64,000 nucleotides of DNA from Butyrivibrio sp. AC2005 (GTDB taxonomy: Bacteria > Bacillota > Clostridia > Lachnospirales > Lachnospiraceae). This document shows positions 4,402 to 21,665 of this stretch, piece after piece; positions within the stretch are counted from its first letter, which is position 1; each line of letters starts with the position of its first letter. The position numbers were made by a program, and so were the translations under genes. Below the pieces are notes generated by a model. That model made no database searches, had not been told where the DNA came from, and saw only the letters and a program-made list of their open reading frames with translations. The stretch covers positions 262,104 to 326,103 of the forward strand of contig NZ_KE384138.1 of assembly GCF_000424145.1 (NCBI RefSeq), in the 5' to 3' direction.

Positions 4402-6969
4402 TTATTTTTTTGTACCCGTTTTACCTGCGGTAGTTTTCTTTGTTGTAGACTTTTTAGCAGATGCTTTCTTTGCAGGTGCCTTTTTTCCTGAAGACTTACT
4501 ACCGGATGACTTTGATACTTCGCCCTTATCACCTTTTTGCGAAAAGACAATCTTATCGTCCTTAAGTCCAATAGTAACCTTGCTGTCGCGCTTGATATTA
4601 CCCTTAAGAAGCTCCTCAGCCATAGCATCCTCAATAACTGACTGGATTGCTCTCTTAAGAGGTCTGGCACCCATCTTAGCATCCGAGTATTTCTTAACAA
4701 GATACTGCTTAACCGGCTGTGACATCACGAGATCGATGCCAAGCTGCTCCTTGCATCTCTTACTGAGATTCTTACTAAGAAGCGCCACAATCTCCATCAT
4801 TTCCTTCTCATTGAGAGGATGGAATACCATAATCTCATCGATACGGTTTATGAATTCTGGTTTGAAAAGTCGTTTAACCTCTTCCATAACGCCGCTCTTC
4901 ATGTGCTCATAATCCTTCTTTTCATCGGAAGCTGTATCAAAACCAAGCTTCTTGGGCTCGATGATTCGCTGAGCACCGACGTTTGAAGTCATGATAAGAA
5001 TCGTATTCTTGAAGCTGACCTTACGTCCCTTGGCATCAGTGATATGACCATCATCAAGAACCTGCAGGAGCACATTGAAAATATCAGGGTGTGCTTTCTC
5101 AATCTCATCAAAGAGAATGACTGAATACGGATGTCTTCTTACCTTCTCTGAAAGCTGCCCGCCCTCATCATATCCAACATAACCCGGAGGTGAACCGATC
5201 ATCTTGGATACTGAATGTCCTTCCATATACTCGGACATGTCAACTCTTATAAGGGCATTCTCATCACCGAACATAGCCTCTGCAAGTGCCTTTGAAAGCT
5301 CTGTCTTACCAACACCTGTGGGTCCGAGGAAAAGGAATGACCCGATGGGTCTGTTTGGATCCTGCAGACCTACGCGGCCTCTTCTTATTGCCTTTGATAC
5401 AGCAACTACTGCATCCTCCTGCCCGATAACTCTCTGGTGAAGGATTTTCTCGAGCTTAAGAAGTCTCTCGGATTCCTTCTCGGCAATCTTCTTAACAGGT
5501 ATCTTGGTCCACATCGCAACTACTTCCGCAATGTCATTTTCAGTAACAATATAGTCTGCGTTCTTTTCCTTCTTATCCTCTGCAGCCTTCTTGCGGTTGT
5601 ACTTTTTGATAAGTGCTTCCTGCTCACGGTGTACCTGTCCTGCGCCTGCAAAGTCCTCCTTTGCAAGGAGCTCTTCAACCTGAGAGTCCATCTCTCTGAT
5701 CTCCTGCTCCATGTCACGAAGTGCAGATGATGATCCTGTAAGTCTCAGCCTTACAGCTGATGAAGCTTCATCAATAAGGTCAATGGCCTTATCGGGAAGA
5801 TTTCTGTCATTTATATAACGACTACTGAGGTCAACAGCTGCCTGAATAGCCTCAGGTGTAATCTGCACATGATGATGCTCTTCGTATTTTCCGACGATTC
5901 CATTCATAATAGCAAGTGTCTCGTCCCTGTCAGGTTCCTCTACACTTACAGGCTGGAAACGTCTCTCAAGAGCTGCATCCTTCTCGACATACTTGCGGTA
6001 CTCAGTTATGGTTGTAGCACCTATCATCTGAATCTCGCCTCTTGCAAGAGAAGGCTTTAAAATATTTGAAGCGTCTATTGCACCTTCAGCACCACCGGCA
6101 CCGATAAGTGTGTGCATCTCATCCACGAAAAGGATAATATTTCCGTCATCAATAACTTCACGGATAACTCTTTTTATACGCTCCTCAAATTCACCTCTGT
6201 ACTTGGAACCCGCAATCATTCCTGATAAGTCAAGTGTAAGCAGTCTCTTATTCTGCACAGTAAAAGGAACATCACCTGACACGATTCTCTGGGCAAGCCC
6301 CTCCACTACTGCTGTCTTACCTACACCGGGCTCACCGATAAGGCAGGGATTATTCTTGGTTCTGCGGCTAAGGATCTGTATAACACGCTGAATTTCATTG
6401 TCTCTGCCAATTATGGGATCGAGCTTATTATCAGCAGCAAGGGCTGTAAGATCGCGACTGTACTGGTCAAGCATGGATGCTTTTTTCTTGGCATTGTTCT
6501 TTCTTCCAAGATCCTCTTTTACCAGACTTGCATCCTCTCCCATGGCTGAAAGTGTCTCAGCATAAATCTTCTGAATTGAAACATTCATGGTGCCAATCAG
6601 ACGAACGGCAACATTCTCACCCTCCTTAATAAGCGCAAGAAGAATGTGCTCCGTACCGATCTTGTCAGCACGAAATCTTGATGCCTGCCTGTCAGCCTCA
6701 TCAAGTACGCTCTCCGCACGGGGAGAAAAACCTTCCTTATCAAGGAGTGTAATATTACCACCCTCAACAATAAGGTCTCTGATGACATCCATCATCTTGT
6801 CTTCATTGATTCCGTTATCAATAAGTATTCTTGAAGCCACGCAGCCCTCTGTCCTTATGAGTCCCATAAGCAGATGCTCCGTACCAACATAATTAAGTTT
6901 AAGTGTTCTTGCGGTTTTTCTTGCAAGCTTAAGCGCTTCCTGCGCTTTCTCAGTATATTCTTTGCTCAA
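4402..6969 (-). CDS. clpC: ATP-dependent Clp protease ATP-binding subunit ClpC
   Basis: A Hsp100 unfoldase that feeds substrates to ClpP. The 855 residues show two N-terminal Clp-N repeats (about 1-145), AAA1 with Walker A GEPGVGKT, a UVR/middle-domain helix (EELLAKEDFAGAGQVHREQ), AAA2 with GPTGVGKT and VILFDEIEKAHPD, an LGF loop of the kind that docks on ClpP, and the D2-small domain. The last about 43 residues are a Lys/Ala/Ser/Thr tail with about one third lysine (repeated SAKKSTTKK-like pieces), unusual for ClpC. ATG follows AAGGAGTTTG. The gene follows a GntR regulator by 49 bp; no ctsR-mcsA-mcsB genes are next to it, unlike the Bacillus operon. Confidence 0.95.
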   Translation of the reverse strand: MSKEYTEKAQEALKLARKTARTLKLNYVGTEHLLMGLIRTEGCVASRILIDNGINEDKMMDVIRDLIVEGGNITLLDKEGFSPRAESVLDEADRQASRFRADKIGTEHILLALIKEGENVAVRLIGTMNVSIQKIYAETLSAMGEDASLVKEDLGRKNNAKKKASMLDQYSRDLTALAADNKLDPIIGRDNEIQRVIQILSRRTKNNPCLIGEPGVGKTAVVEGLAQRIVSGDVPFTVQNKRLLTLDLSGMIAGSKYRGEFEERIKRVIREVIDDGNIILFVDEMHTLIGAGGAEGAIDASNILKPSLARGEIQMIGATTITEYRKYVEKDAALERRFQPVSVEEPDRDETLAIMNGIVGKYEEHHHVQITPEAIQAAVDLSSRYINDRNLPDKAIDLIDEASSAVRLRLTGSSSALRDMEQEIREMDSQVEELLAKEDFAGAGQVHREQEALIKKYNRKKAAEDKKEKNADYIVTENDIAEVVAMWTKIPVKKIAEKESERLLKLEKILHQRVIGQEDAVVAVSKAIRRGRVGLQDPNRPIGSFLFLGPTGVGKTELSKALAEAMFGDENALIRVDMSEYMEGHSVSKMIGSPPGYVGYDEGGQLSEKVRRHPYSVILFDEIEKAHPDIFNVLLQVLDDGHITDAKGRKVSFKNTILIMTSNVGAQRIIEPKKLGFDTASDEKKDYEHMKSGVMEEVKRLFKPEFINRIDEIMVFHPLNEKEMMEIVALLSKNLSKRCKEQLGIDLVMSQPVKQYLVKKYSDAKMGARPLKRAIQSVIEDAMAEELLKGNIKRDSKVTIGLKDDKIVFSQKGDKGEVSKSSGSKSSGKKAPAKKASAKKSTTKKTTAGKTGTKK

Positions 6970-13315: not shown

Positions 13316-16000
13316 TTACCCATGCGCTTCACTATCCCCGAGCATATATAACAGTCCGAAAGCACCGCTGCCATGTATAGCAGCCATGGATGCAGATTCC
13401 TTCTGGACGATTATCTCATCAAAAACCATTATGTTAGCGATCCACCTCTTGATTTCCTCAAGTTCGGCAACCGACAGATCCGTATGCGTCAGGAACAGAA
13501 GCTTCCTGTCGATTGGTGCAAAGCGTGTAAGCTGATCATCCACATAATTTTTTCTGCACTTCTGGGCAGGCCCCACCATCATCCTTCCAAGAGTTCCTCT
13601 TCCATCCCTGAAAAGTATGGCCGGTTTCAGCATGAATACTCTGCTAAAGCCACCCACTCTTCTTTTAATTCTTCCCATACGTATCAGATAATCAATATTA
13701 TCAACAAGGAAGCTGGTATGTACGCGCTTTTTGATCACGTTGAGCTCCGCTATACATTCCTGAACATTTCTGCCCTCCTGACAAAGTCTTATTGCCTGAA
13801 GGACAAGTATGCCAATGCCGCTGGAGAGGCTCTCGGAGTCAATTACAGTGACCTTATCAAAGGAAGCTGCTGCCTCCCTTGCCACATGGTAAGCACCACC
13901 CGCTCTTCCCGACATACTGATATGAATGATGTTCTCAGCATCAGATAAATGCGCAGCAAAGAAATCCTCATACTCCTGAACTGACGGAATATCCGCCGCA
14001 AGATCTTCGGAACCGCCTTCGCTCATGTACTTTAATATTCCCTCTGTCTCTACCTCAACGCCATCCAGGAAAACTCCGGTCTTGGTTTTTATATAAAGCG
14101 GAATTGTAGGAATTCTGAGCTTTTCAAGCATCTCCTTTGGTATATCGCAGGCACTCTCCGTCGTAATGAGAATAGGCAGTCTCTCCTTATCCGACATAAG
14201 CTTGTCATCCTCGGGATTAATGTACATAGGAGTGATTCTTCTGACCTTGTCTGCAGGAAGAACACGAAGTAACGTGTTTTCAAGCATCTCTCCGGAAACA
14301 GGCTTAAGCAGATATCCATCAAAACCGGCTACCCTGTACTTCGCCTGGTCATCAGCTGATGAATATGCGGTAATAACTATGACAGGAGTCTCACGGCACA
14401 TACCACCCACCTGGGAACGGAGCTGTCTGAGCGTCTCTATACCATCCATTTCAGGCATCTCGTAGTCCATGAAAATGCAGTCATATTCCACATCAGCACA
14501 TCTGGACAGACATTCTGCACCGCTCTCTGCCTGATCGATGACCATCTTGGTATCCCTTAAGAGCTTGGCAGTCACAATTCTGTTCATAACATTGTCATCA
14601 ACAATGAGAACCCTGCATGACGGAGCTTCAAAGCTCTGTCTGTAGAACTGTGTTGCCTCACGTTTTTTAAGAGTTTCAAGCGCAAGCTCTCCAACAGGAT
14701 CAGGATTAACAACCTCCTGCGGAATAGTAACCGTAAAGGCAGAACCCTTTGTATAAATACTGTTTACCTGTATCTCGCCATTCATGGCATCAGTCAGCTG
14801 TTTTACAATCGCAAGTCCGAGACCGGTGCCGCTTATTCCTTTTGTCTCCTCAACATTTACTCTCTTGAACTCATCGAACAGGTATGGCATGCTGTCCCTC
14901 TTAATACCCATTCCGGTATCTTCTATGGAAAAAGACAGCGATATCTGGCTATTACTGAGAGGTTTCCACTTAACTGTAAGTTTTACACTACCCTCACTTG
15001 TATACTTGATAGCATTACCTATGAGATTCATAAGTATCTGCTCTATTCTTACATCGTCACCAAGAAGTCTCTTTGGAATTGTTTTATCAATATCAACATG
15101 AAAAGCCAGACCTTTTCGTGAGGCCTCTCCCCATATCAGATTAACCGTCTCCGACAAAAGCAGCGCCACATCATACTCCGCAGGAACGATTTCCATCTTC
15201 CCGGACTCAAGCTTACTCATATCAAGAACGTCATTCATAAGCGACAGAAGAATTTTGCTTGCACTTTTTATATTACTTGCATTCTCTGCAATCTCATCAG
15301 TAGTCGCATTCCTGAGGATCATCTCATTGAAGCCCAGTATGGTGTCAATGGGAGTTCTGATCTCATGACTTACGCTTGAAAAGAATCTGCTCTTCGCCTG
15401 TCCAAGCTCCTGAATCTCTTCCTTCTGCTGCTCAATCAGCTTATTCTCAGATTTGTATATCTGATTCTGAAAAAGAATCATGACCGTCATCAATGCGCTG
15501 ACAAGCAACACACTTGTAAGCGAGTCAAAATGCGCAGCCTCAACAGTATGCTGCGTTACAAAATTTGGAAAGGTATAGGAACAATAATATGAAACGGCTG
15601 TCATTATTCCGCCGATTACAAGAAGAACATATTTCCTTAGTCCCTCCACCGTCATTCCGATAAAGGTAAATCCAAATACAAACCAGATCGGTGATCCGCC
15701 ATAGATTCCGCCACCAAGAATAAAAGCCACAGGAAGAATGAAAAGCACAAGTATGGATGCTATTATCGTCGCTCCAAGCTGTACCTTTCTCTTTTTTATG
15801 GAGAACATTACAATGCCCGAAAAGATTACAAGAAAGACAGATATAATAAAGATATTTATAATATCATCACCAACCAGTATTCCTATAAAAATGAGCAAAA
15901 ACATGGTAAGAAGCCCTATTACAGGAATGACGGCAAACATCTTTTCCTGAAGGGTTTTGTTCCTATCGTATGCCACGTTGAACAAGCGCTTAAAAATCAT
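13316..16000 (-). CDS. Hybrid histidine kinase fused to a C-terminal DegV lipid-binding domain
   Basis: The 894-residue protein has five or six membrane helices (about 20-180), a HisKA domain with H212 in SHEIRTP, a HATPase_c domain (N box GNAIKYT about 328-334, G1 DTGMGI, G2 GTGLGLAIVK), a receiver domain (463-582; acidic pair DD468-469, phospho-acceptor D512 in MDYEMPEMDG, K566), and then a full DegV domain (about 608-892) starting LPILITTESACDIP and containing HISMSGRAGGAY, VIDSESLSSGIG and IDYLIRMGRIKRR. DegV/FakB proteins bind fatty acids and present them to FakA kinase. All kinase residues look intact. The start overlaps the upstream kinase stop (ATGA), so the two are coupled. Confidence 0.93.
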   Translation of the reverse strand: MIFKRLFNVAYDRNKTLQEKMFAVIPVIGLLTMFLLIFIGILVGDDIINIFIISVFLVIFSGIVMFSIKKRKVQLGATIIASILVLFILPVAFILGGGIYGGSPIWFVFGFTFIGMTVEGLRKYVLLVIGGIMTAVSYYCSYTFPNFVTQHTVEAAHFDSLTSVLLVSALMTVMILFQNQIYKSENKLIEQQKEEIQELGQAKSRFFSSVSHEIRTPIDTILGFNEMILRNATTDEIAENASNIKSASKILLSLMNDVLDMSKLESGKMEIVPAEYDVALLLSETVNLIWGEASRKGLAFHVDIDKTIPKRLLGDDVRIEQILMNLIGNAIKYTSEGSVKLTVKWKPLSNSQISLSFSIEDTGMGIKRDSMPYLFDEFKRVNVEETKGISGTGLGLAIVKQLTDAMNGEIQVNSIYTKGSAFTVTIPQEVVNPDPVGELALETLKKREATQFYRQSFEAPSCRVLIVDDNVMNRIVTAKLLRDTKMVIDQAESGAECLSRCADVEYDCIFMDYEMPEMDGIETLRQLRSQVGGMCRETPVIVITAYSSADDQAKYRVAGFDGYLLKPVSGEMLENTLLRVLPADKVRRITPMYINPEDDKLMSDKERLPILITTESACDIPKEMLEKLRIPTIPLYIKTKTGVFLDGVEVETEGILKYMSEGGSEDLAADIPSVQEYEDFFAAHLSDAENIIHISMSGRAGGAYHVAREAAASFDKVTVIDSESLSSGIGILVLQAIRLCQEGRNVQECIAELNVIKKRVHTSFLVDNIDYLIRMGRIKRRVGGFSRVFMLKPAILFRDGRGTLGRMMVGPAQKCRKNYVDDQLTRFAPIDRKLLFLTHTDLSVAELEEIKRWIANIMVFDEIIVQKESASMAAIHGSGAFGLLYMLGDSEAHG

Positions 16001-18477
16001 GATGCACTACCTCCGTAAAGCCGCATAATATCCGATCTTACGGCATCAATTTGTCGTTTCAGGTCATCGTGATTTGCAACAACAAAAGCTTCCCATTTTT
16101 CTTCGGCAGCCCTCTCTATCTCGCCTGCCTTCCTGGAAAGATCATTTGCACCTATTATTCTTGATGAGAGCTTAAGCCCCTCAAGCTTTATCCTGTAGTT
16201 ATCCCAGTCTCTTGCATCGTAAAGCCCCTGAAGCTCTGAGATAATTCCGTCCGCCTCTCTGTCAAATTCAAAGAGCATCTCAGCATAAAATTCATTGCTT
16301 CCGCGGCATATTCTCACGCCGTTTTGCTGATTGAGCATTCCAAAATTCATGGGCATATCTGTACCGTTATAGCCACTTAATGCACTTGCTTCGTCAACTT
16401 CCTCCTTGACTGTCACATATTCCCACATGGTTGAAGGCAGCAGCTTTTTCAGAACTCTTTCAAGCTCTGACAGTTCGATGGGCTTTGCAAGGAATTCATC
16501 AAAGCCTTCCTTCATGAACATTTCCCTGACACCACTAACCGCATTTGCAGTAAATGCAATTATCGCAGTGCGGTCATCGGAGCCTGCATTTTGTCTTATG
16601 AGCTTCATCGCCTCCACACCGTCAACATCAGGCATCATATGATCCATGAAAACAATGTCATACTTCTTTTTCTCGCAGAGAGTAACAGCTTCCATTCCGC
16701 TATGGGCAAGATCTGCATCCATTCCATAGCCTGCCAGAATCCCCTTTGCAACTATAAGGTTCATTTCCTCATCATCAACAATGAGAGTATTTACATTCTT
16801 AAATACAAGCTTTTTACCGCTTGTCTCAGGATCAAACTCCCATACAGCCATTTTTCTGTTAACCGCATTAACAATGGAATGGCTGAAAATGGGCTTTCTG
16901 ATATAGGTAACATTGCTGTTTTCAGGTATTCTAAAGCCCGGTGATACTGTAGCAATTACAGAAATCTCCGACTTAACATTCTCATAGTATTCTGTATTCT
17001 CAAGGTATTCTTCCTCAGCTATGATAATATGCGTAATCTGACTCTTAGCGCACAATCTCTTAAGCTCGTCGAATTCAACTACTCTGTGGATTGGAACAGA
17101 GAGTCCCTTAAGAATATGCATTATCATTGTTGTATAATATTCTCTTACAGCAGGGCTCTTATACTTGTCGTTTCTGAGATAGCAGGCTATCTCCAGCTTT
17201 TCGGGGTGATCTACTACTACACTTGGCTTTTCATCGATTACCTTCTGTGGAACACTGACTGTTACTTTGGTTCCATTTTTCAGCTCGCTCTCGATTCTTG
17301 CAAAACCTCCCATTTTTTTAGTAAAACCATATACTATGGAAAGTCCGAGACCGATTCCCTCTACCCTTCTGCTTCTTCCGGAATCAATCTGATAGAGTCC
17401 TTCTATAACCCTTTTTCTCTCCTCATCAGTCATACCGATTCCGGTATCCGTAACCTCTATGCACAGGTTTACGCCATATTCCTTTTTTCTGGCAAAAACA
17501 TGAAGATTAACACAGCCATTGCCATCCGTAAACTTGACGGCATTGACCATAAGATGCCTTATTATCCTTTTTATTCTTGCGGAATCTCCTACCATTCGCG
17601 CAGGAATATTTGCATCCATATCTATGATTATCTCAGGTGCGCCCTCCTTCTGGAGTCTGAACTCGGTTGAAATATCATTAACCACTGAGGATATGCGATA
17701 TTCATCCTCCGACAAAACAAGGGAGCCCGTATCTATCTCAGTATAGTCAAGAATATCTTCGATCCTGCTGAAAAGTCTGCGACCTGCACCCTGAATGGCA
17801 CTTAGATCGGCCTTCTTTTTTTCTTCCTTTTCACTGTTTAAAAGAAGTCCCGAAAGACCTGTTACCACGTTGATTGGTGTACGCAGTTCATGTGAGATGT
17901 TGGCCATGAAATCCTCTGATTTTTCCTTCATCTCAGCCATCTCTTCTTCCAATTCATCAGCCATACTCTTGGAAACAGCGAACATTTCGCAGATATAGCT
18001 CGCAACTCTGTCAGCAATTGTTACTGCCATACAGTCCAGTATAATGGTTCCCACATTAAACTGACCTCTCTGCTCAATATTTGTCAGTATCATAATGAGG
18101 TGATACCCCAGAAGCATCGCATATGCCATAAAAAATATGCGAAGAACAGGCTTTTCCTCAGTAAGAGAAAAAAGCATCATCGCAAGTACAAATATTAGCG
18201 CCGCATTATTAAACTGTTCAACATGGGATCCGTAATAGAACACCGCGAGCGAGATAAAGCCCGCATAAACGAAGACCCGGAACCTGAAGACAAACTGTCC
18301 GGATATATAAATACTCCAGGAGGTAACGGTTCCGATTACAATAATCGGAATCGCCCACAACTCCCATTTTTCAATAATTGAGACAACAATAAGCCCAAGC
18401 GAATACAGCGAATAGCACACAAGTATCACTATCTGTATACTTTTTCGCATTTCCTCATTCCGCCTGCCTCTGTCCAT
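15997..18477 (-). CDS. Hybrid histidine kinase with degenerate receiver, receiver and a pseudo-phosphotransfer domain
   Basis: The 826 residues contain six membrane helices (about 15-165), HisKA with H196 (ANISHELRTP), HATPase_c (VNAVKFT, DTGIGM, GIGLGLSIV), a receiver-like region without acidic residues (about 427-540), a true receiver (563-680; DD568-569, D612 in MDHMMPDVDG, K665) and an Hpt-like helical domain (about 705-815). In the Hpt motif the position of the phospho-accepting His is Glu766 (YRIKLEGLKLSSRIIGA, versus YTTYVHGLKSSARAIGA in the kinase at 21809-24829). A GAGGTG site precedes the ATG. It lies 9 bp downstream of a small membrane protein gene, in the pyrE unit. Confidence 0.92.
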   Translation of the reverse strand: MDRGRRNEEMRKSIQIVILVCYSLYSLGLIVVSIIEKWELWAIPIIVIGTVTSWSIYISGQFVFRFRVFVYAGFISLAVFYYGSHVEQFNNAALIFVLAMMLFSLTEEKPVLRIFFMAYAMLLGYHLIMILTNIEQRGQFNVGTIILDCMAVTIADRVASYICEMFAVSKSMADELEEEMAEMKEKSEDFMANISHELRTPINVVTGLSGLLLNSEKEEKKKADLSAIQGAGRRLFSRIEDILDYTEIDTGSLVLSEDEYRISSVVNDISTEFRLQKEGAPEIIIDMDANIPARMVGDSARIKRIIRHLMVNAVKFTDGNGCVNLHVFARKKEYGVNLCIEVTDTGIGMTDEERKRVIEGLYQIDSGRSRRVEGIGLGLSIVYGFTKKMGGFARIESELKNGTKVTVSVPQKVIDEKPSVVVDHPEKLEIACYLRNDKYKSPAVREYYTTMIMHILKGLSVPIHRVVEFDELKRLCAKSQITHIIIAEEEYLENTEYYENVKSEISVIATVSPGFRIPENSNVTYIRKPIFSHSIVNAVNRKMAVWEFDPETSGKKLVFKNVNTLIVDDEEMNLIVAKGILAGYGMDADLAHSGMEAVTLCEKKKYDIVFMDHMMPDVDGVEAMKLIRQNAGSDDRTAIIAFTANAVSGVREMFMKEGFDEFLAKPIELSELERVLKKLLPSTMWEYVTVKEEVDEASALSGYNGTDMPMNFGMLNQQNGVRICRGSNEFYAEMLFEFDREADGIISELQGLYDARDWDNYRIKLEGLKLSSRIIGANDLSRKAGEIERAAEEKWEAFVVANHDDLKRQIDAVRSDIMRLYGGSAS

Positions 18478-18486
18478 AGCTGCACC

Positions 18487-18849
18487 TCATAAAAATGAAA
18501 AGTACAATAGCAACCCTACCCATATGAGCGAAAGCACATTGAGTATTATCCCCAAAGTCGGAAATAGCCTAAATATATCCTTTTCCATCCTGGACATTAT
18601 TCCAAGTACAAGACCCGCTATGGAGTACACCAGGCAGATCATAACTGCCACGGCGTACTTACCTTCAGCCTCTCCGCCATTTTTATAGCTTAGAAAAACA
18701 GCATATATAATGGTGACTACCGAAATAAGTCCCAGTGCCGCCGAAAGAACTCCTTTCTCAGGATGTTTCTTGTCAGTAAACACGTATCTGCCGTGCCCCC
18801 GGCCAGGAAACTTTATATTCAGTTTTCTCCTCTTTTTTCTCTCCTCCAT
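18487..18849 (-). CDS. Small membrane protein of unknown function, 120 residues
   Basis: A basic N-terminus (MEERKKRRK...) is followed by three predicted transmembrane helices (about 35-53, 64-85, 95-118). I recall similar proteins as a family of unknown function (possibly DUF6142) in Lachnospiraceae, but this assignment is from memory and uncertain. It lies 7 bp after pyrE and 9 bp before the kinase, so it is probably co-transcribed with both. Confidence 0.75.
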   Translation of the reverse strand: MEERKKRRKLNIKFPGRGHGRYVFTDKKHPEKGVLSAALGLISVVTIIYAVFLSYKNGGEAEGKYAVAVMICLVYSIAGLVLGIMSRMEKDIFRLFPTLGIILNVLSLIWVGLLLYFSFL

Positions 18850-19569: not shown

Positions 19570-19613
19570 CCCCTCATCCGCCCTTCGGGCACCTTCCCCC
19601 AGAGGGGGAAGGC
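19570..19613. repeat. GC-rich dispersed repeat, copy 2 (short form)
   Basis: CCCCTCATCCGCCCTTCGGG...CCTTCCCCCAGAGGGGGAAGGC, the same ends as copy 1 with the middle missing. It directly adjoins the tandem repeat at 19611-19856. Confidence 0.85.
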
Positions 19614-19856
19614 ATTATATTGTTCTTACCCCTTTGGGAAAGGCATTATATTGTTCTTACCCCTTTTGGGGAAGGCATTATATTGTTCTTACCCCTTTTG
19701 GGAAAGGCATTATATTGTTCTTACCCCTTTTGGGGAAGGCATTATATTGTTCTTACCCCTTTTGGGAAAGGCATTATATTGTTCTTACCCCTTTTGGGAA
19801 AGGCATTATATTGTTCTTACCCTTTTGGGAAAGGCATTATATTGTTCTTGCCCCTT
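19611..19856. repeat. Tandem repeat, eight copies, 31-32 bp period
   Basis: Eight copies of GGCATTATATTGTTCTT, each followed by a variant of ACCCCTTTTGGGGAA. Unit ends repeat the terminal GGGGAAGGC of the adjoining dispersed repeat, so the array looks like an expansion of its tail. The frames through it in all phases encode only low-complexity repeats. With 19570-19613 it fills the gap between pyrF and pyrE. Confidence 0.92.
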
Positions 19857-20891: not shown

Positions 20892-21665
20892 TCATTTTTT
20901 ATCATCAAAAAAATCATCTATGCTGCTTATGAGCTTTGCCTTGGGCATGGTCTTAAGAAGATACTTCTCAGGCCTTAGTGCCGCAACGGAAACCACGCTC
21001 TCCTTGTCACTCTTGGAGGTGAGGAACATTACGGGTAAATTCTTTAGCTCATCGCTTTTTCTTATCTGCACAAGAACCTGCGGTCCGTCCATCTGAGGCA
21101 TCATATAATCAAGAAGGACCAGGTCAACATCATTGCTCTGTAAAAAATTCAAGGCAATTTTACCTGAGCTTGCCATATAGACTCTGTATTTTACCGAAAG
21201 CCAGGTCTTTATCATTCTGAGCATTGTGCCATCGTCGTCCACTACCAGAATCTTCTTTTTCTGCTCGTCTCCAAGGGCATTGCTCTGAACAACCATATCA
21301 AGCTGCTCTGCAAGCTGGTTGACATCAAGAGGTCGCAGGAAGCTCTCCGTGATTTTAATCTTGGACAAAAACTTTGCTGCATATTCCAGCTCATCGGTAT
21401 TTCCCACTTCATATAGATAGAAGCGTTCCTTGTCGATGGCTTCGTCCAGATATTTCAGCTGTTCTATGCCGTTTCGCTCGGGACTTGCAGGGTCTATATC
21501 ACCGAGGTAGAGAACGTACATCTCGGGCTTGTTCTCAATTGCTTTGATATCCTTTTTGGTAAATTCGCTTTTTATTACTTCATAGCCTGCATTTTCAAGT
21601 CCTTTTGCAATGGCACTTACCATGAAGCTTTTTTGTGATCCTATAAGTAGTACGCGTTTATCCAT
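20892..21665 (-). CDS. Response regulator: degenerate N-terminal plus canonical C-terminal receiver
   Basis: The first 120 of 257 residues look like a receiver fold lacking the phospho-acceptor pattern (MDKRVLLIGSQKSFMVS...). The second half is a normal receiver (KKKILVVDDDGTMLRMI, LLDYMMPQMDG, FLTSKS, YLLK). There is no output domain, so it may act through protein contacts or as a phosphate sink. It follows the 1006-residue kinase, separated by repeats, and is its most likely partner. Confidence 0.88.
   Translation of the reverse strand: MDKRVLLIGSQKSFMVSAIAKGLENAGYEVIKSEFTKKDIKAIENKPEMYVLYLGDIDPASPERNGIEQLKYLDEAIDKERFYLYEVGNTDELEYAAKFLSKIKITESFLRPLDVNQLAEQLDMVVQSNALGDEQKKKILVVDDDGTMLRMIKTWLSVKYRVYMASSGKIALNFLQSNDVDLVLLDYMMPQMDGPQVLVQIRKSDELKNLPVMFLTSKSDKESVVSVAALRPEKYLLKTMPKAKLISSIDDFFDDKK

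Follow-up and report, generated by a model that had tools for sequence, protein, structure and literature searches.

A DegV/FakB-fold domain fused to a hybrid histidine kinase in a two-kinase gene pair of Butyrivibrio: a candidate ligand-responsive module uncoupled from FakA

Several hybrid histidine kinases are common to one pathway in the GacS/RetS/LadS and Rcs networks, and the RpfC hybrid kinase reads a fatty-acid signal via its membrane region. To our knowledge, none of these systems contains a DegV domain. The locus presented here would resemble them in having hybrid kinases that share one pathway and, in the case of RpfC, in the reading of a fatty acid. The DhaQ and DhaK regulators are separate proteins that act on transcription factors, not on kinase domains. 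In FakB, the carboxylate of the fatty acid is surrounded by a network of Thr62, Ser95, Ser171 and His270, Arg173 is required for the FakA reaction, and docking to FakA and to the membrane takes place through Arg205 (PMC8892158, PMC9136124), the R205E substitution lowering the affinity of FakB1 for FakA (PMC9136124). According to PMC5539427, SaeRS activity in S. aureus depends on fatty acid kinase, which makes a link between lipids and a sensor kinase plausible, the arrangement being different from the one described below.

The analysed window was a stretch of 64,000 nucleotides from Butyrivibrio sp. AC2005 (contig NZ_KE384138.1, positions 262,104 to 326,103), a genus placed within Lachnospiraceae by the NCBI taxonomy. 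The features of the studied locus are collected in Table 1.

Table 1. Features of the DegV-kinase locus and its surroundings (window coordinates)
Feature	Position	Strand	Basis
Hybrid histidine kinase-DegV fusion, 894 aa	13316..16000	-	ORF, Pfam, orthologues
N-terminal helices, predicted membrane, residues about 17-180	15461..15952	-	Full-length AlphaFold model
HisKA, residues 202-267, phospho-acceptor H212	15200..15397	-	Pfam PF00512; H-box
HATPase_c, residues 314-429	14714..15061	-	Pfam PF02518; N, G1, F, G2 boxes
Receiver (Response_reg), residues 464-575, D512	14276..14611	-	Pfam PF00072; motifs
DegV/FakB-fold domain, residues 610-885	13346..14173	-	Pfam PF02645; model; PDB matches; residues
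Partner hybrid kinase, 826 aa: HisKA, HATPase, receiver, Hpt-like tail	15997..18477	-	ORF; Pfam
Hpt-like tail of partner, about residues 715-815	16033..16335	-	Hpt model built from relatives
DUF6142 protein	18487..18849	-	Pfam; same position in orthologous loci
Tandem array between pyrE and pyrF	19605-19856		
Response regulator, about 260 aa, receiver in second half	20892-21665		
Neighbouring hybrid kinase, 1006 aa	21809-24829		

An earlier note on this DNA, made from the sequence alone, had read one frame as membrane helices joined to an intact HisKA-HATPase-receiver kinase and a full DegV domain, and had proposed it as a candidate for an undescribed signalling architecture. The ORF, Pfam and motif analyses confirmed the composition of the frame, which begins with ATG and contains no internal stops. 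Hybrid kinases and DegV proteins are both well known, and no report of their fusion was found in the open literature searched (most subscription journals lay outside the search), in agreement with the proposal; the available parts of PMC3146951, PMC12688256, PMC3533761 and PMC9912610 describe no such fusion. All four Pfam domains exceeded their curated cut-offs, the PF02645 match covering profile positions 2-277 of 280 (E 4e-40), and the NCBIfam DegV model TIGR00762 scored 151.8 bits against a cut-off of 99.7. The kinase motifs (H212, N-box, G1, F and G2) and the receiver residues (D468/D469, D512, T544 and K566) were all present; by its HisKA histidine, HATPase boxes and receiver phospho-Asp the fusion is a hybrid histidine kinase, with activity predicted from these motifs. 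The TorS, BarA and LuxQ models were among its top NCBIfam scores, all of them under the equivalog cut-offs. In comparison to such hybrid or unorthodox kinases, the locus is alike in the HisKA-HATPase-receiver order and in having an Hpt in one subunit, and differs in the DegV domain placed after the receiver and in the use of two adjacent genes with, in most loci, one Hpt between them. The full-length AlphaFold model placed helices at residues 17-43, 47-69, 73-95, 104-117, 121-143 and 153-231; its pTM was 0.39, so that its secondary structure was used and domain contacts were not read from it. The N-terminal helices are probably membrane-spanning, judging by their hydrophobic sequence.

The DegV domain was modelled separately with AlphaFold from 15 sequences (pLDDT 91.1, pTM 0.89), the region matching the FakB lid being of lower confidence (about 74). 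Comparison with the PDB returned DegV/FakB proteins as the first 45 of the best 50 matches, with VIA-align Z values of 27.5 to 33.1 for DegV/FakB structures, followed by DhaQ, DhaK and the FakA C-terminal domain with Z of 14 to 16. The Z value was 32.2 to S. aureus MW1315 (4x9x) and 31.9 to FakB1 (6nm1_A, 279 residues, rmsd 2.4), whereas it reached 16.1 to DhaQ (2iu4) and 15.6 to DhaR(N)-DhaK (4lrx), at about 10% sequence identity. In the model, the domain is a FakB fold over its full length. The PDB titles describe DhaQ as a co-activator (2iu4) and E. coli DhaK as complexed with DhaR (4lrx). These regulators share with the fusion a related fold wired to a regulator, and differ from it in the low identity to the DegV domain mentioned above.

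The residues characteristic of FakB were compared between 100 fusion DegV domains and 22 DegV domains outside kinases (two of these controls, L154 and L163, were taken from longer frames), and the numbering was consistent with the FakB1 chain. Thr62, Ser95, Ser171, Arg173, Arg205 and His270 of FakB1 corresponded to A669, G701, M775, R777, V809 and I875 of the window copy, I875 being followed directly by H876; the window copy retained R173 and was without Thr62, Ser95, R205 and H270. Arg205 was found in 2 of the 100 fusions and 20 of the 22 controls, His270 in 1 and 17, respectively, and the two jointly in none of the fusions compared with 17 controls. Arg173 was kept in 39 fusions, among them 9/9 members of the window clade, and in 22/22 controls. 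Thr62 was present in 17 fusions, with Ser in a further 60 (Ser or Thr, 77/100), against 20/22 controls. Ser95 occurred in 64 fusions and in all the controls, the fusion count being alignment-dependent (33/41, 61/86 and 64/100). Ser171 was a poor marker, as 20/22 controls had Gly at that position. Arg205 and His270 were missing outside kinases too, namely in the stand-alone domain L002 and in L154, a 601-aa frame (4568-6370) that by eye joins a FakA N-terminal part to DegV. The latter resembles our fusion in having DegV joined to another domain and in lacking Arg205 and His270; it looks like an enzyme fusion, with no two-component kinase, the FakA-like label being a reading of the sequence by eye. 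L028, L101 and L153, which were among the best-scoring non-kinase relatives compared (some equally high-scoring ones from the phylum and class samples lay outside the comparison), retained all five residues, and the residue loss therefore appears to be a trait of the fused branch. In L075, a stand-alone DegV gene (5729-6622) lay directly downstream of a DegV-kinase fusion, and its product retained Thr62, Ser95, Arg173, Arg205 and His270.

In comparison to FakB/DegV proteins (S. aureus FakB1, PF02645), the fused domain is thus alike in fold, full length, lid region and, in the window clade, Arg173, and differs in being part of a single 894-aa frame, kept in orthologues, rather than stand-alone, and in the absence of Arg205 and His270, to which the window copy adds the absence of Thr62 and Ser95. 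The window's genome additionally contains a separate FakA-like gene and five DegV matches in frames of 294-309 aa, corresponding to stand-alone DegV genes. The Pfam and TIGR00762 matches over cut-off, the FakB fold, the retained R777 (R173) and the FakA-like gene would all suit a working FakB that binds a fatty acid, presents it to FakA and is tied to kinase output. This explanation is improbable, however, since R205 is absent from 98/100 and H270 from 99/100 fusions, T62, S95, R205 and H270 are all missing in the window copy, and in FakB1 the R205E substitution weakens the affinity for FakA (PMC9136124). With the FakA link lost, and with the FakA-like gene and five DegV genes present separately, delivery of a fatty acid to FakA by the fusion appears unlikely on these residues, and a regulatory module uncoupled from FakA appears more likely. 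Of the FakB-type reading given in the earlier note, the fold was upheld (model Z about 32), while presentation to FakA was not, Arg205, Thr62, Ser95 and His270 being absent. The altered pocket may nonetheless bind a lipid or another small molecule.

A total of 101 distinct DegV-kinase fusions were gathered. Duplicates (L090, L092 and L126) were removed from the set, L087, L088 and L100 were left uncounted as the same loci as L039, L040 and L043, and L098, with a broken frame, was excluded from the residue counts and the tree, leaving 100. In quick trees without bootstrap, comprising 122 domains, the 100 fusion DegV domains formed one clade relative to the 22 non-kinase domains (SH-aLRT 100), which shows that, within the domains compared, DegV joined the kinase once. 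The window's genome encodes two further DegV-kinase fusions in frames of 1147 and 1156 aa. Within the genus, a DegV match in a frame of at least 800 aa was present in at least 18/25 genomes, its own genome counted, and, among the matches listed for 16 genomes drawn from the order's other families, none lay in a frame that long. In the family sample, DegV lay in a frame of at least 700 aa in at least 36/250 genomes; both counts were made by hand and are lower bounds, weaker matches not having been listed. One locus was fetched from each of these 36 genomes, and in two of the fetched loci (L156 and L159) no receiver was detected. Among the matches over threshold, DegV frames of at least 700 aa were confined to the window's family in the order sample (196 genomes) and in the phylum sample (398 genomes), and the class sample (291 genomes) added two genomes of one other family from another order (L133 and L134), whose pair architecture was the same as in the window's family. 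The order, phylum and class samples overlap and were searched at thresholds of 1e-40, 1e-45 and 1e-50, which weaker fusions would escape; within them, the fusions belonged to Lachnospiraceae, the window's family, and to the two genomes of the other order. By their records, the close relatives were assigned to Butyrivibrio and Lachnospiraceae, and 2/15 to other Clostridia.

A feature missing from the earlier reading is the pairing of the fusion with a second kinase, whose gene runs at its end into the fusion gene, with an overlap of 4 bases. The gene order DUF6142, partner kinase, fusion, purE is conserved between the window and its eight distinct orthologous loci in Butyrivibrio (L039 to L043, L089, L091 and L093). 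Across the whole set, a partner hybrid-kinase or receiver frame lay directly upstream of the fusion in 92/101 cases, and 88 of these 92 pairs carried exactly one Hpt, on either subunit. In 48 pairs, an HK-REC-DegV fusion was accompanied by an HK-REC-HPt partner, and in 36 an HK-REC-DegV-HPt fusion by an HK-REC partner; in three more pairs, the partner frame of an HK-REC-DegV fusion was REC-HPt (L094 and L127, where it lay at the start of the contig, and L143, where another frame encoded the kinase), and in L073 the partner of HK-REC-DegV-HPt was a REC piece lying at the end of the contig. The four exceptions were L123, with only a short receiver frame upstream, L144, and L168 and L169, whose partner tails had no detected Hpt and in which a separate downstream frame encoded an Hpt with His. 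Nine fusions were without a partner frame, five of them at a contig end (L045, L067, L098, L117 and L138); in L149 and L076 a partner was present beyond the distance limits used, and the remaining two were L156 and L159. The Hpt of the L076 partner carries Arg in place of the phospho-acceptor His, and in the L149 pair the Hpt, with its His, is encoded by a frame of its own. The placement of DegV differed in three loci. In L144 (5410-8304), it was N-terminal, before the membrane helices (DegV-TM-HK-REC), in a frame reaching the contig end, and in L156 (3707-6334) and L159 (3743-6337) it lay on a kinase frame in which no receiver was detected. The L156 kinase, having no H-box by eye, looks like a dead kinase.

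The Hpt position required two changes on the tree (one in a smaller tree), and the one-Hpt rule consequently represents a few events, not 88 independent ones. The phospho-acceptor His was kept in 37/37 fusion Hpts and 42/51 partner Hpts of the counted pairs. The nine partner Hpts without it were those of the window and its eight clade mates, in which His was replaced by E, S or N (9/9). In the window, Glu766 of the partner occupied the His position in the alignment to the Hpt model of relatives; Pfam at E 0.001 did not list an Hpt in the partner tail, and none was found in the fusion itself. As there is no Hpt His in either protein, the window pair is, by its predicted residues, not an unorthodox HK-REC-Hpt kinase. 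The distances between fusion kinases and between partner kinases were correlated (r 0.689 over 86 pairs), a value never reached in 1000 shuffles of partners among paralogues (mean 0.532, maximum 0.645), performed inside the ten Butyrivibrio genomes having several pairs. This correlation fits fixed, co-inherited pairs and does not imply physical contact; fixed pairing with correlated distances is expected of any old operon. The overlapping genes, the co-conserved partner and the single Hpt of most pairs together argue that the fusion is a subunit of a two-gene kinase pair.

The DegV part was 89, 82, 78, 55 and 51% identical to its orthologues, and fusion length and gene order were common to all those compared. 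Against L039, its dN/dS was 0.036 (0.021 for the kinase part), and against L041 it was 0.043 (0.068 for the kinase part), a rough estimate, as the synonymous sites of L040 and L089 were saturated and yielded no value for DegV. A chance or assembly artefact as the source of the fusion was ruled out by the orthologues, gene order and dN/dS. The near-universal presence of a full DegV domain in the fusions is no evidence of constraint, the set having been collected by that domain; the dN/dS values show, roughly, that fold and sequence are constrained. They make it highly improbable that the DegV part is a functionless, drifting relic, as might be supposed from the loss of the docking and head-group residues and, in the window clade, of the partner Hpt His. 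The absence of pocket head-group residues in the window clade, the closely co-conserved partner and the varying place of DegV (at the N-terminus in L144 and, in L156 and L159, on a kinase frame with no detected receiver) would also suit a ligand-free DegV fold that docks or assembles the two kinases or their response regulator. Ser/Thr62 and Ser95 persist in many fusions, however, and the predicted presence of the whole FakB fold, less surely of its lid, exceeds what a scaffold needs; we consider such a structural role possible, if rather unlikely.

We favour, with a probability of about 0.55, the explanation that the DegV domain is a FakA-uncoupled, ligand-responsive regulatory module of a paired membrane hybrid kinase. 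The modelled FakB fold, the loss of R205 and H270 in the fusions, the dN/dS constraint, the single clade, the upstream partner with one Hpt per pair, the correlated kinase distances, the separate FakA-like and DegV genes, and fold relatives wired to regulators (DhaQ, 2iu4; DhaR(N)-DhaK, 4lrx; by entry titles) speak for it. Against it, Ser/Thr62 in 77/100 and Ser95 in 64/100 fusions indicate that some of them may still hold a carboxylate, R173 is retained in 9/9 members of the window clade, Arg205 and His270 are also lost outside kinases (L154 and L002), the position of DegV is variable (L144, L156 and L159), and the ligand, the complex and the phosphotransfer are predictions. We infer complex formation, ligand, direction of control and output regulator as follows. 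The DegV module, hung on the receiver, would respond to a ligand on the DhaQ principle, in which a regulator learns of a small molecule from a carrier-type protein severed from its enzyme. The ligand could be an acyl or lipid molecule arriving from the membrane via the lid, or something else; its state would act on the receiver or on how the two kinases touch, and thereby on the phospho-flow towards the Hpt that they share. With no Hpt His, the pairs of the window clade would have to send their output directly to a separate receiver or via an Hpt elsewhere, the neighbouring 1006-aa hybrid kinase being an example of a possible Hpt donor. We offer only tentatively, and regard as doubtful, the fuller scheme of a lineage-specific signalling machine in which the co-encoded pair of hybrid kinases assembles into a single complex sharing one Hpt, the FakB fold, no longer able to serve FakA, reads the acyl or lipid state of the membrane and gates the phospho-flow, and, the Hpt of the window clade being dead, the lipid-type module together with transfer to a separate receiver or Hpt replaces the internal relay. 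If the favoured explanation is true, there would be a direct coupling of lipid or other metabolite state to two-component signalling in the Butyrivibrio group of the gut and rumen, bacteria with many hybrid kinases in their genomes. The domain resembles a substrate carrier that has become a regulator, and the natural series of carrier, fused copy and most degenerate copy would offer a way to ask how a sensor domain evolves.

An extra small receiver gene was located between the fusion and purE in 5/8 orthologous loci (L040, L041, L042, L089 and L093) and was absent there in the window. Replacement of the lost Hpt by its product was rejected, as the Hpt-like tail in L040 carries Arg where the His is expected, and the same protein in L041, L042, L089 and L093 showed no such His by eye. 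The neighbouring 1006-aa hybrid kinase, two to three genes from the DegV kinase pair, contains an H-box and an Hpt-type motif, the His of which is residue 865. The response regulator listed in Table 1 was considered as the cognate regulator and set aside as unsafe, since it adjoins this other hybrid kinase; proteins resembling it were found in 20/92 loci scanned, the window counted in. A response regulator of about 260 aa was observed directly downstream of the fusion in L049, L057, L060, L068, L076, L077, L078, L118, L125, L149 and L152. No RNA elements were detected in the window at gathering thresholds, and nothing was concluded from its promoter-like sites (16 versus 14.3 expected) or terminator-like sites (9 versus 4.3 expected, sd 1.9). 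The tandem array between pyrE and pyrF consists of 7.9 copies of a 32-base unit with 95% matches.
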